Shown here one piece after another: positions 23,716 to 27,756 of a stretch of 30,265 nucleotides of DNA. Within the stretch, counting starts at the first letter, position 1. Every line of letters starts with the position of its first letter. Under the pieces are notes generated by a model that saw nothing but the letters and a program-made list of their open reading frames with translations, was not told where the DNA came from and did not search any database. The DNA is taken from positions 1 to 30,265 of IMG/VR virus record IMGVR_UViG_3300034021_000868; one strand, written 5' to 3'. Source of the DNA: a virus. The position numbers were made by a program, and so were the translations under genes.

Positions 23716-24557
23716 TGTCAAAACCTACAAGTAGACAAGAATTAATTGATTACTGTCTCAGAAGACTGGGAGCACCAGTATTGGAAATTAATATCTCAGA
23801 TGAACAAATTGATGACTTAGTTGATGATGCTCTTCAATACTTTCAAGAAAGACATTTTGATGGTGTTGAAAGAATGTATCTTAAGTACAAGATTACGCAG
23901 GCAGACATAGACAGAGCAACGGCAAAAAATACAAATGGTGTTGGAATTGTAACTACAACTGGAAGTGCTACAATTTCTGGAATAGGAACTACATCATTTA
24001 ATTTTTATGAGAATTCAAATTTTATACAAGTTCCAGACAGTATTATTGGAATTGAAAAAGTATTTAAGTTTGATACTAGTTCAATTTCTGCAGGTATGTT
24101 TAGTATCAAATATCAACTCTTTTTGAATGATTTATACTATTTTAACTCCGTTGAACTCCTACAGTATGCGATGGTAAAAACTTATCTTGAAGACATTGAT
24201 TTTCTTTTATCAACAGATAAACAAATACGTTTTAATAAAAGACAAAATAGATTGTATCTTGATATCGATTGGGCATCAAAAGCAAAGGATACTTTTATTG
24301 TAATTGATTGCTATAGAATTTTAGATCCAAATGATTTCACTAAAGTTTATAATGATAGTTTCTTGAAAAAATATTTAACTGCTTTAATGAAGCGTCAGTG
24401 GGGTCAGAACCTAATTAAATTTAGAGGAGTTAAACTTCCTGGCGGAATTGAACTAAATGGCAGAGAAATCTATGAAGATGCAGAAAGAGAACTAGAAAGC
24501 ATCAGACAGAGAATGTCAATGGATTATGAACTTCCTCCTTACGACTTTATTGGATAA
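23715..24557 (+). CDS. 13: neck protein gp13 (head completion)
   Basis: The protein has 280 residues; T4 gp13 has 309. gp13 joins gp14 at the portal after packaging to form the neck where the tail attaches. Family features are the N-terminal helix SRQELIDYCLRRLGAPVLEI (about residues 6-25), then ISDEQIDDLVDDALQYFQER, DGVERMYLKYKIT, a short Gly/Thr-rich insert (about 75-95) and the segment FKFDTSSISAGMFSIKYQLF with following DLYYFNSVELLQYAMVKTYL. The C-terminus has YLTALMKRQWGQNLIKF, typical of this family. It is placed between the wac-position gene and gp14 with one-base overlaps (TAATG) at both ends, so stoichiometric coupled expression with gp14 is likely. Confidence 0.93.
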   Translation: MSKPTSRQELIDYCLRRLGAPVLEINISDEQIDDLVDDALQYFQERHFDGVERMYLKYKITQADIDRATAKNTNGVGIVTTTGSATISGIGTTSFNFYENSNFIQVPDSIIGIEKVFKFDTSSISAGMFSIKYQLFLNDLYYFNSVELLQYAMVKTYLEDIDFLLSTDKQIRFNKRQNRLYLDIDWASKAKDTFIVIDCYRILDPNDFTKVYNDSFLKKYLTALMKRQWGQNLIKFRGVKLPGGIELNGREIYEDAERELESIRQRMSMDYELPPYDFIG

Positions 24558-25948
24558 TGGCACTTAATCCCTTCTTTCTTCAAGGATCACCAAATGAACA
24601 AAGACTCGTTCAAGAATTAATTAACGAGCAACTGAGGATTTATGGTGTTGAAGTCATTTATATCCCAAGAAAATTTGTTAGAAGAGAAACTATTTTAAGA
24701 GAAATTTCATCATCCAAATTTGATGATAATTATGCTATTGAAGCATATATCAATAATTATGAGGGATATAGTGGTCAGGGAGATCTTCTAACAAAATTTG
24801 GAATGAGTCTAAAAGATGAAGTAAGTTTAGTCATATCAAGAGAAAGATATGAAGATTTTATTGCACCATTTCTTGATGAAAATGATCCTGAAATTGAATT
24901 GGCATCTAGACCCAGAGAGGGTGACTTAGTTTATTTTCCTCTAGGGCAGAGATTGTTTGAAGTTAAATTTGTAGAACACGAACAACCATTTTACCAATTA
25001 GGTAAGTTATATGTTTATGAATTGAAATGTGAACTCTTTGAATATGAGGATGAAGTCATTGATACTTCGATTGATGAAATTGATAAGACAATTCAAAACG
25101 AAGGATATATTACAACGTTAAACCTAATTGGTATTGGTACAACTGCTGCCGCAACCGCAACAATTGGCACTGGATATATCAGACAGATTTATTTAAATAA
25201 TGATGGTTATGGATACACATCAAATCCAACCGTTTCGATATCCACTGCCCCCTCCGGAGGCACAAACGCATCGGCTGTAGCGATTACCTCATCAATCGGG
25301 GGAATCAGGTCTGTGAGTCAGATATTACTCACTAATGCTGGTTCTGGATATACCGTGGCACCAACGATTCAAATTATTGGTGGTGGAGGGACTGGAGCAA
25401 TTGCAACTTGCTCGATAGAAACAGTTGCAAGTGGAATTATAAACTTTAGCATAACAAATCCAGGGTACGGTTATAAAGAAGTTCCTAGTGTTACAATTGT
25501 AGGTTCCGTAGGATCTGGGCAAACTGCGGTTGGAATTGCTTCAATCAATTCTAGTGAGCAAGTATCTACTATTAGGATTTCGAATCCTGGAGTTGGATAT
25601 ACACAATCTCCAACTATTACTATTCAATCTCCATCGATTATTTCTGGATTTGGAACTTTTATATTTAATGAAATCGTTACTGGAACAAGATCTTATACAA
25701 CTGCAAGAGTCAAGTCTTGGGATAAAGATACTAATATGCTCAAGGTATCGATTGTAAGCATTGGAGCAACAATTAAAGGATTCTATCCAGGAGAACTCAT
25801 TGTTGGAGCAGCATCTTCAGCAAGATATGCAGTATCTTCATTTGAAGAATGGGATGAATATGATAAATATAGTGAAAATAAAACAATTGAACTGGAAGCA
25901 GATCAAATTATTGATTTTTCAGAGTCAAATCCATTTGGTACATATTAA
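24557..25948 (+). CDS. 14: neck protein gp14 with a four-fold GxGY repeat insertion
   Basis: The protein has 463 residues against 256 in T4. Residues 1-185 match gp14: YGVEVIYIPRKFVRRE (compare T4 RGVECYYVPREYV), AYINNYEGYSGQGDLLTKFG (T4 [20 protein letters not shown]), EGDLVYFPLGQRLFEVKFVE and PFYQLGK. Residues about 195-365 are an insertion with GxGY at 217, 262, 303 and 345 (spacings 45, 41, 42), each followed by a P-[TS]-[VI]-x-I strand, suggesting a small beta-structured appendage. After the insertion the family tail resumes, ending FSESNPFGTY, parallel to T4 ESSPFDNDF. The neck therefore probably carries an external decoration absent from T4. Bases 25221-25320 in the first repeat are 54% G+C, against 31% at 25561-25680. 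Confidence 0.92.
   Translation: MALNPFFLQGSPNEQRLVQELINEQLRIYGVEVIYIPRKFVRRETILREISSSKFDDNYAIEAYINNYEGYSGQGDLLTKFGMSLKDEVSLVISRERYEDFIAPFLDENDPEIELASRPREGDLVYFPLGQRLFEVKFVEHEQPFYQLGKLYVYELKCELFEYEDEVIDTSIDEIDKTIQNEGYITTLNLIGIGTTAAATATIGTGYIRQIYLNNDGYGYTSNPTVSISTAPSGGTNASAVAITSSIGGIRSVSQILLTNAGSGYTVAPTIQIIGGGGTGAIATCSIETVASGIINFSITNPGYGYKEVPSVTIVGSVGSGQTAVGIASINSSEQVSTIRISNPGVGYTQSPTITIQSPSIISGFGTFIFNEIVTGTRSYTTARVKSWDKDTNMLKVSIVSIGATIKGFYPGELIVGAASSARYAVSSFEEWDEYDKYSENKTIELEADQIIDFSESNPFGTY
25204..25620 (+). repeat. four tandem GxGY protein repeats in gp14
   Basis: Four degenerate units of 41-45 codons share the pattern I-x-x-G-x-GY-x-x-x-P-[TS]-[VI]-x-I followed by a Gly/Ala/Ser-rich turn. 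The DNA copies are diverged and only the protein pattern is conserved, except that the first unit has a distinctly higher GC content. Confidence 0.8.
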
Positions 25949-25957
25949 CTATAAATA
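25949..25957 (+). promoter_or_regulatory. late promoter CTATAAATA after gp14
   Basis: This is a perfect late box starting one base after the gp14 stop. It is 29 bases upstream of the HNH start, longer than the 19-22 bases before the other late genes. It probably originally served gp15, which is now 572 bases away because of the endonuclease insertion. Confidence 0.8.
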
Positions 25958-25986: not shown

Positions 25987-26515
25987 ATGCAAACATATTA
26001 TCATAACCACCATATAATACCAAAACATATGGGAGGTGGTGATGAACCAGATAATATTATTAAATTAACAGTGCAAGAACACGCAGAGGCACACAAAATC
26101 CTTTGGGAAAAGTATGGAAAAAAAAGAGGATGAAATTGCTTGGAGAATGTTAAGTGGGCAAATAACTCCATATGAAGCAACCATAGAAGCAATTAAGAAT
26201 TCTTCAAGAAAAACTTGTATAAAAAGAAACAAAGAAAATAATCCAATGTGGGATCCTAAAAATGTAGATAAAGCGAAGAAAAATATTAAAAAATTTTGGG
26301 ATAATAATCCAGATTTAAAAAAAGAAGTATCAAAGAGATCAAAACTAATAAATACAGGTAAGCAAAGAACTGAAAAACAAAAAGAAAATTATAGAAATGC
26401 TAGATTGGGTAAATATTATCCAACCTCAAAAAGAAAATGCTCTTGTTTGGGATGCAAAAAAGAAACTACAACTCAAGCATTTCATAGAGTTCACTTAAAA
26501 AAATGTTTTGAATAA
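25987..26515 (+). pseudogene. HNH homing endonuclease, frameshifted at an A8 run
   Basis: Translation from ATG 25987 gives MQTYYHNHHIIPKHMGGGDE, with PDNIIKLTVQEHAEAH following. This is a classic HNH beta-beta-alpha-metal site with candidate residues H8/H9, N23 and H32. The frame hits TGA at 26131-26133 after 48 residues. The neighbouring +1 frame continues the family sequence without a break (EDEIAWRMLSGQITPYEATI, residues about 46 on) to TAA at 26513-26515. The switch point is an eight-A run at 26118-26125; with seven A the gene would encode 175 residues. The C-terminus carries a possible zinc-binding CLGCKKE...HRVHLKKC motif (CxxC, HxxH, C). It may be a real inactivating indel, a sequencing error or slippage. 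Free-standing HNH genes that home between phage genes are common in T4-like phages. It was inserted between gp14 and gp15. Confidence 0.82.
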
Positions 26516-26529
26516 TCGGGTATAGAAAA

Positions 26530-27327
26530 ACGTTAGGAACTTACTATTATCACGAAATTATTAGAAGAACTGTTATCTCCTTTGGTACGTTATTTAATGA
26601 TATCAATATTCGCCATAAAGATTCTTCTGGAGATAGTATCAGTCAGATAAAAGTTCCTTTAGCATATGGTCCTATGCAAAAATTCCTTGCTAGGATTGAA
26701 CAGCAATCAGAATTGAATAAACCAATTGCAATGACTCTACCTCGAATGTCGTTTGAAATGACATCAATTCAATATGATGCAACAAGGAAATCTGGAGTAG
26801 CACAAACTTTTAAAGCACAAGAAGGAAATAATTTAAAAAAAGTTTATCTTCCAGTCCCATATAATATTGGGTTTCAATTAAATTTGATGAGTAAGATTCA
26901 AGATGACGCATTGCAAGTAGTAGAGCAAATATTACCTTATTTTCAACCAGCATTCACATTAACTGTTGATTTAATTGATTCTATAGGAGAAAAAAGAGAT
27001 ATCCCAGTTGTTCTTGATAATGTCTCATTCACTGATGACTATGAAGGAGATTTTTCAACAAGAAGAATATTAATCTATACTTTTAATTTCACCGCTAAAA
27101 CTTATCTCTTCGGTCCAATTGCAGAGAACAGCGATGGTCTCATTCGCAAGGTTCAAGTTGATTATTATACTGGTACAGATACTCAGACTGCTAAGAGAGA
27201 AATGAGATATACTGTAACTCCAGATCCAATTGATGCTGCTCCCGATGATGATTTTGGATTTAATGAATCTATTGAAATGTTCTTTGATGGAAAAGAATTT
27301 AGTCCTACAAGACAAACTGATATTTGA
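26530..27327 (+). CDS. 15: tail sheath stabiliser and completion protein gp15 (start codon abnormal)
   Basis: The frame reads TLGTYYYHEIIRRTVISFGT from 26530, then LFNDINIRH, closely parallel to T4 gp15 (MFGYFYNSSFRRYATLMGDL, FSNIQIKR). Further matches are KVPLAYGPMQKFLARIEQ, LPRMSFEMTSIQYD, VVEQILPYFQP (T4 IVEQILPYFQP) and the GLIRK region near residue 200. gp15 forms a ring that ends the tail tube and sheath and binds the neck. The codon where family members are expected to have ATG is ACG (26530-26532). No ATG, GTG or TTG lies between it and the in-frame TGA at 26509. The next ATG (26674) would delete 48 conserved residues. From ACG the protein is 265 residues, near T4's 272. Identity is secure; the start is not. 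Initiation at ACG, at upstream ATA/ATC, or a loss of function are the options. Confidence 0.85.
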   Translation, partial: TLGTYYYHEIIRRTVISFGTLFNDINIRHKDSSGDSISQIKVPLAYGPMQKFLARIEQQSELNKPIAMTLPRMSFEMTSIQYDATRKSGVAQTFKAQEGNNLKKVYLPVPYNIGFQLNLMSKIQDDALQVVEQILPYFQPAFTLTVDLIDSIGEKRDIPVVLDNVSFTDDYEGDFSTRRILIYTFNFTAKTYLFGPIAENSDGLIRKVQVDYYTGTDTQTAKREMRYTVTPDPIDAAPDDDFGFNESIEMFFDGKEFSPTRQTDI

Positions 27328-27333
27328 TAAATT

Positions 27334-27756
27334 ATGAAAAATAATTATGATGGTTTAGATGCCTCTTTAAATATAGAGAGCAGCATTGTAGAAGTAGAAA
27401 AAGACAAGGGTGATTTAAATATCACTCCTTTAAAGACTGATGATATTAAAAAAGATTATGAGTACACACGTGCAAATTTATATTCATTGATTGAAAAGGG
27501 GCAAGAGGCAATCAATGGAATTATGGAACTTGCCGGAGAAGGTGGCAGTCCAAGAGCATATGAAGTTGCTGGGCAACTTATTAAGAGTGTTGGAGATGTA
27601 ACAGATAAACTTATTGATTTGCAGAAGAAATTAAAAGATGTGGAAGAAGATACTGTAAAAACAACTAATAATGTTACTAATAATGCGGTGTTTGTTGGTT
27701 CTACATCTGAACTTTCAAAATTACTCAAACAAGGTTTTCTAAATAATAAAGAGTAA
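27334..27756 (+). CDS. 16: terminase small subunit gp16
   Basis: The protein has 140 residues; T4 gp16 has 164. The small terminase forms a ring that recognises concatemeric DNA and stimulates the gp17 ATPase/nuclease. Seen here: DDIKKDYEYTRANLYSLIEK (about residues 36-55), parallel to T4 EDDYGVVRRNMHFQQ; the GGSPRAYEVAGQLIKSVGDV helix (about 70-89), parallel to ADSPRHMEVFATLMGQM; a coiled-coil-like segment DKLIDLQKKLKDVEED; and the C-terminal NNAVFVGSTSELSKLLKQ, matching T4 QNATVFMGSPTELMDEI. It starts six bases after gp15. The large subunit gp17 would be expected close by but is not in the window; three other genes follow instead. Confidence 0.9.
   Translation: MKNNYDGLDASLNIESSIVEVEKDKGDLNITPLKTDDIKKDYEYTRANLYSLIEKGQEAINGIMELAGEGGSPRAYEVAGQLIKSVGDVTDKLIDLQKKLKDVEEDTVKTTNNVTNNAVFVGSTSELSKLLKQGFLNNKE

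Follow-up and report, generated by a model that had tools for sequence, protein, structure and literature searches.

We propose that in a T4-like cyanophage and in relatives that share its leader sequence, translation of gp15 probably starts at an ACG codon, and that this codon, together with the 22 nt directly in front of it, forms a module, most likely the 3′ end of an HNH homing element, that is passed from one cyanophage to another. The ribosome would initiate gp15 at the ACG, presumably with formyl-methionine, where relatives have ATG, and initiation would be supported by a weak Shine-Dalgarno (SD)-like RGGU 8 nt upstream within the leader, where no conserved fold is present. Leader and ACG would travel as one unit. 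Most likely they would be the 3′-terminal part of a free-standing HNH homing element whose insertion site is the gp14/gp15 junction, and they would remain after the HNH gene decays. We infer both the initiation event and the transfer by homing from the sequence facts, the linkage, the distribution and the selection described below.

The gp15 start site and its conserved leader

The window, that is, the whole stretch of DNA analysed, is a 30,265-base record of a T4-like cyanophage with the gene order gp14, HNH gene, gp15, gp16. The product of gp15, which is essential in T4, is the tail sheath stabiliser or tail completion protein. In the window the gene (26530..27327, plus strand, as are all features below) matches Pfam PF16724 with an E value of 2e-87 (292.9 bits against a cut-off of 25; profile positions 1–240 of 245) and the T4 gp15 chains with E values of 8e-29 and 9e-29, and the homology to T4 extends from the N-terminus, with residue 5 of the window protein aligned to residue 4 of T4 gp15. 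Upstream is gp14 (24557..25948), the neck protein or head closure Hc2 (PF11649, E 1.7e-32; PHROG 460, E 9.3e-136), and the 3′ neighbour is gp16 (27334..27756), the small terminase subunit (PF11053, E 1.5e-7). Thus, in its near full-length match and in its gp14 and gp16 neighbours the gene resembles the T4 gp15 family (PF16724; PHROG 227, tail sheath stabilizer), from which it differs in having ACG behind a special leader instead of ATG. Just 3′ of the gp14 stop a scripted scan located TATAAATA (25950..25957, −580 from the ACG), which we take to be a T4-type late promoter motif. Similar motifs lie between gp14 and gp15 in many, not all, alleles in which the two genes are separated, and gp15 may therefore have its own late transcript there. 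In L030 and its kin, TATAAATA is found 46 nt 5′ of the ACG.

As the preliminary description had claimed, the codon at 26530..26532 is ACG, followed by TTA GGA ACT TAC, and the codons that separate it from the in-frame TGA at 26509-26511 (ATA ATC GGG TAT AGA AAA) include no ATG, GTG or TTG. The first such triplet in frame is at 26674 (codon 49), and a start there would indeed cost 48 codons. Sequence and allele comparison both point to the ACG as the proposed start codon. Within the window leader (TTGAATAATCGGGTATAGAAAA, 26508..26529) the sole canonical start triplet is a TTG at 26508, which is out of the gp15 frame. The same ACG, behind the same HNH insert, is present in the cultured Synechococcus phage S-SRM01, which is 83% identical to the window in nucleotide sequence, and the same ACG is found in two further IMG/VR contigs, L090 and L094. 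These two contigs match the window without mismatch over 3,758 bases from the leader onward, and 5′ of the leader they show one mismatch in 962 bases (L090) and none in 500 bases (L094).

Among 225 distinct gp15 alleles the start site is occupied by ATG in 191 and by ACG in 34, with no other codon; because the sources were searches returning at most the best 80 loci each and leader scans, the ratio of 34 to 191 is not a frequency. The loci came from similarity searches with the window gp15 and four other gp15 queries, two leader scans, the records of three phages and the window itself. In reducing 379 loci to 225, two short ones were dropped and duplicates sharing the same 30 bases upstream and the first 300 of the gene were merged. 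In the comparison of N-termini that the preliminary description had proposed, 191 of 191 non-ACG alleles have ATG at the ACG site. In 177 of these, ATG and gp14 stop share bases (TAATG or TGATG).

The 22-nt leader, with consensus TTGAATAAWCRGGTAYRGRAMR, lies directly 5′ of the start codon in all 34 ACG alleles and in none of the 191 ATG alleles. For alleles fetched through the first leader scan, whose pattern named ACG, this linkage holds by construction, and a scan with the start codon left open is therefore the fairer test; it returned ACG in 30 of 30 distinct gp15 contexts, together with 11 further contexts that are not gp15. An earlier tally of 127 alleles (106 ATG and 21 ACG) included 18 ACG alleles found by similarity to gp15 or the window, all of which have the leader; L084, L092 and L093 came from the ACG-naming scan. 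All 34 alleles share ACG as codon 1, whereas each of codons 2–10 varies, codons 3–8 at the third position. In 45 pairs among 10 alleles, hand-chosen for their different contexts, mean identity is 92% for the leader plus ACG, 43% for the preceding 25 nt and 58% for third positions of codons 2–26. Neither in S-SRM01 nor in the window does the leader occur anywhere but at gp15 when up to three mismatches are allowed, and the exact leader-plus-ACG pattern has no match in prokaryote genome contigs.

An intact leader followed by ATG is absent from the 34 leader alleles and the 30 contexts, which suggests either selection for ACG, through immunity or lower expression, or recent spread. Related leaders do precede ATG in L069, L073, L079, L103, L196 and L215, and also in L110 and L111. 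The ATG in these alleles stands exactly at the ACG site, and a stop closes the frame 2 to 5 codons before it (established by script for L069, L079 and L110; read by eye for the remainder), so that an upstream in-frame start would be unusable. The first six carry an altered leader that is one base shorter (TTGGATAAT...AAAATG) and fall among ACG alleles on the gp15 tree; judged by their sequences, they look like natural revertants in which the leader is starting to change.

Translation of the gp15 N-terminus

The preliminary description had offered a sequencing error or a damaged gene as explanations of the ACG, and we regard either as extremely improbable. The window does contain a homopolymer frameshift, in the HNH gene, as such an explanation might lead one to expect. 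An error is refuted by the same ACG in S-SRM01, L090, L094 and 34 distinct alleles. Damage is refuted by purifying selection: over codons 2–48, pN/pS is 0.215 in 29 ACG alleles and 0.271 in 40 ATG alleles (L084, L232 and L236 were dropped, and the first 40 eligible ATG alleles were taken). This selection indicates that the N-terminus is translated. Furthermore, S-SRM01 is cultured, and gp15 matches at a single place in it at an E value of 1e-5; a second gp15 copy was thereby rejected.

A start at the 26674 methionine, which would have spoken against an ACG start, is not shared by the alleles. In 32 ACG alleles the first in-frame ATG, GTG or TTG falls between codons 21 and 73 and no start is common to all; L033, L241, L255 and L260 have no such codon before codon 73. 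An internal start at 26674 was rejected on these grounds. A start-like codon at codon 40 is present in 18 of the 32, including S-SRM01, and is absent from the window and 13 others. The non-canonical ACG start, also among the options of the preliminary description, is thus the best-supported reading of these sequences, short of proof.

The leader offers modest help to initiation. The window has GGGU, a weak SD-like sequence, at 26518..26521, 8 nt 5′ of the ACG, with an anti-SD duplex energy of about −3.8 to −3.9 kcal/mol. Across alleles the mean duplex energy is −3.99 kcal/mol for ACG and −3.88 kcal/mol for ATG, which is weak and hardly stronger, and a strong SD was rejected on these energies. 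A conserved hairpin that masks or presents the start was also rejected (−0.84 kcal/mol over 11 sequences, with compensatory pairs absent). In one E. coli reporter, ACG was among codons active at 0.1–1.5% of ATG, according to the part of that report available to us (PMC6925171), and such poor performance counts against ACG initiation. A regulator gene with an ACG variant still works at an initiation rate lower than that of ATG, according to the accessible portion of a second report (PMC10449621). In the available part of the S-SRM01 paper (PMC8557907), the string "mass spectrom" does not occur and the passages with "proteom" concern a proteomic tree.

The invariance of ACG is not by itself decisive, as the ATA at −18 is also invariant. 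This ATA (26512..26514) directly follows the in-frame TGA, and gp15 could start there as AUA, overlapping the stop of the upstream frame, or at the AUC at 26515-26517, with a six-residue extension such as M-I/N-G-Y-R-K before T-L-G-T. We consider such a start unlikely. In all 32 ACG alleles compared the ATA follows the TGA and the frame is open to the ACG, in HNH alleles the AUA overlaps the HNH stop (AUAA), and three of seven variable leader sites are synonymous in the extension frame, which by a hand estimate is suggestive but not significant. However, the codon after ATA is AAC rather than ATC in 22 of 32 alleles, so only ATA fits; no SD-like sequence was seen by eye 5′ of the ATA in alleles such as L045 and L161; and a one-base gain from ATA to ATG occurs in none of 34 alleles. 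Four of the six extension codons differ between alleles in the amino acid encoded, whereas the ACG never changes, and the ATG alleles with related leaders have their ATG in the position of the ACG and do not keep the extension frame open. Initiation at the ACG itself does not alone explain why TTGAATAA, the part of the leader 5′ of the SD-like site, is conserved. Conservation beyond the needs of an SD and a start codon may reflect a more extended initiation signal, a reading frame or transfers that were recent and recurrent.

Translation might alternatively begin at the out-of-frame TTG at 26508, in the HNH gene or in a short upstream frame, and reach gp15 by a ribosomal frameshift or hop. The TTG is invariant in leader haplotypes and the end of the HNH gene is close to an A AAA AAA run, which is in favour of such recoding. 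However, the next stop position in the TTG frame is not conserved (TAG, CAG or CGG), a ribosome shifting by −1 on the A run would terminate at the TGA at 26509, an upstream frame common to alleles such as L045, L092 and L161 was looked for by eye and not seen, and the 11 sequences share no conserved RNA structure. Taken together, these points make recoding very improbable.

Finally, the ACG could be changed or bypassed at the level of RNA, by C-to-U editing to AUG, by a spliced leader or intron, or by a special phage initiator tRNA, each of which we hold to be highly improbable. ACG-to-AUG editing does occur in chloroplasts, according to the available part of a report on their starts (PMC9845219). 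At the gathering score the window has no Rfam match, which gives no intron core and led us to reject a known RNA element or intron. ARAGORN finds 12 tRNA genes in S-SRM01, none with anticodon CGT, and the window has no tRNA; a phage initiator tRNA that reads ACG was rejected accordingly. The tRNA-Met (CAT) of S-SRM01, read by eye, has a G-C first acceptor pair and is elongator-like. We know of no ACG-to-AUG editing in phages or cyanobacteria. A phage initiation factor was rejected as well, since the S-SRM01 gene that bears the annotation "translation initiation factor 2" has its matches to NUMOD3 repeats.

The HNH gene and the spread of the leader

The gene between gp14 and gp15 in the window encodes a putative HNH homing endonuclease in two parts. 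The N-terminal part (25987..26133) has 48 codons in its own frame and was recovered by tblastn with residues 1–46 of the S-SRM01 HNH protein (91% identity). The C-terminal part, an open reading frame of 133 amino acids (26114..26515), is 93.9% identical to residues 45–175 of the same protein, and its stop, TAA at 26513-26515, lies 14 nt 5′ of the ACG. A run of eight A (26118..26125) shifts the frame where L167, L230 and L271 have seven, and from the sequence the HNH protein of the window virus is probably inactive or dependent on slippage. The run of eight recurs in L004/L090/L166 (one contig) and in L094, all near-identical to the window. The HNH family PF01844 scores 18.5 bits against a cut-off of 21.4, and PHROG 655, homing endonuclease, gives an E value of 7.9e-18.

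Close relatives differ in the presence of the gene: the window has it and L005 has no insert, although their gp15 proteins are 98% identical. Among ACG alleles, an uninterrupted HNH gene lies 5′ of the leader in L001, L084, L096 and L167, L232 has a nearly complete one, the gene is frameshifted in the window, and the contig of L027 ends inside it. HNH debris only is found in L012/L093, and by eye a short stretch like the HNH 3′ end is left in L242/L255 and L261. L030, L045, L092, L161 and their kin have no HNH match in the bases upstream (900 bases for the L030 type). The preliminary description had also suggested reinitiation after the HNH stop. In 27 of 34 ACG alleles, though, only 49 to 116 nt separate the end of gp14 from the ACG, too few for an HNH gene, and reinitiation is therefore not the general mechanism.

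The distribution of ACG is patchy. On a tree of 174 gp15 rows made with FastTree only, with the first residue left out, the ATG/ACG character needs 17 changes, at least 10 of them forced by the starred branches. The gp15 sequences that have ACG are highly divergent, and upstream of some of them lies an HNH gene or what remains of one. For example, L236 and L232, which are 43% and 51% identical to the window in gp15, are placed among ATG relatives despite having the same leader and ACG; when they were used as queries, only their own contigs matched from the first residue among the 48 and the best 80 loci listed. This patchiness, with HNH genes or remnants upstream, suggests that leader and ACG travel with the homing element and outlast it. 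The L030-type alleles lack an HNH match, and transfer by an HNH element is accordingly something that we infer. In light of the HNH-like tails an HNH origin of the leader would be the simpler reading. The preliminary description had suggested that the endonuclease insertion altered the start; this is partly right, in that leader and ACG appear to move with the homing element and to persist once it has decayed, and the change does not look like a one-off lesion in this phage.

Two natural pairs bring the alleles close together. The window and L005 contrast ACG with an HNH gene and ATG without one. L258 (ACG) and L103 (ATG) encode gp15 proteins that are identical in aligned columns after residue 1, and 11 of 13 60-base blocks of their DNA are identical. 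A uniform co-conversion gradient at the junction was found neither between the window and L005 nor between L236 and L278: in the first pair identity near the start (87–92%) is lower than downstream (95–100%), and in the second the reverse holds.

The reason for ACG may lie in the junction itself. GGTAY in the leader and GGTAC at the gp14 end in ATG alleles such as L005 are at an equal distance from the start, so the right flank of the element may be a changed copy of the junction. To evade its own nuclease, the element would have had to change the junction, and the ACG would be part of that change. We tentatively extend this to a possibility that we consider doubtful, namely that the homing element brings its own start module and resets an essential gene to ACG, and that ACG and its flank remove the endonuclease target as a heritable immunity scar, which persists after the endonuclease is lost and which selection maintains in many cyanophages. 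The near-isogenic natural ATG and ACG alleles make it feasible to ask whether mobile elements rewrite start codons.

Comparison with known systems and annotation of gp15

The AUU of infC is a rare natural non-AUG start in bacteria. Among viruses, the VP2 protein of AAV has an ACG start, and ACG initiation reportedly occurs on the P/C mRNA of Sendai virus. These viral cases resemble gp15 in having an ACG start in a viral gene; they differ in that theirs involve eukaryotic ribosomes and no leader module linked to a homing element. Like the infC start, the non-AUG starts of chloroplasts, as far as the available part of their description goes (PMC9845219), are near-cognate codons at a conserved place. 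The gp15 ACG differs from AUG at the middle base, is patchy and is polymorphic with ATG.

The free-standing HNH homing endonucleases of phages (PHROG 655; the T4 genes, in the accessible portion of PMC2988022) similarly have a late structural gene on either side, occur in some close relatives but not in others, and follow a late-promoter-like motif. What sets the window element apart is that it brings a non-AUG downstream start that also exists without an HNH gene; its cleavage is putative. By title and abstract opening in the open literature, outside which most subscription papers fall, we found no natural conserved ACG start in a phage or bacterium, which is weak evidence of novelty. The ACG start, which belongs to a tail gene essential to T4 and is present in a cultured phage, appears to be a real and testable exception to the rules for start codons, and with the ATG/ACG allele pairs one can ask how the ribosome uses ACG well enough for virion assembly.

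A conserved ACG start also bears on the annotation of gp15. The public records of S-SRM01 (L001 3297-3977) and S-T4 (L276 1714-2295) annotate gp15 from an internal codon. That of S-SRM01 begins at codon 40, where the window lacks a start codon. In S-T4 an ordinary ATG is found at the gp14 stop, so that the S-T4 annotation looks simply truncated. In S-SKS1 (L275 1498-2290) gp15 is unannotated and starts with ATG, and its match falls into three pieces, which suggests frameshifts or errors in the sequence. Two other S-SRM01 entries deserve mention: the NUMOD3 matches of the supposed initiation factor gene (L220 12515-13273) mean that its name is probably wrong, and psbA (L223 7378-9040) is split in the annotation into two pieces with a putative endonuclease between them, as expected of an intron.
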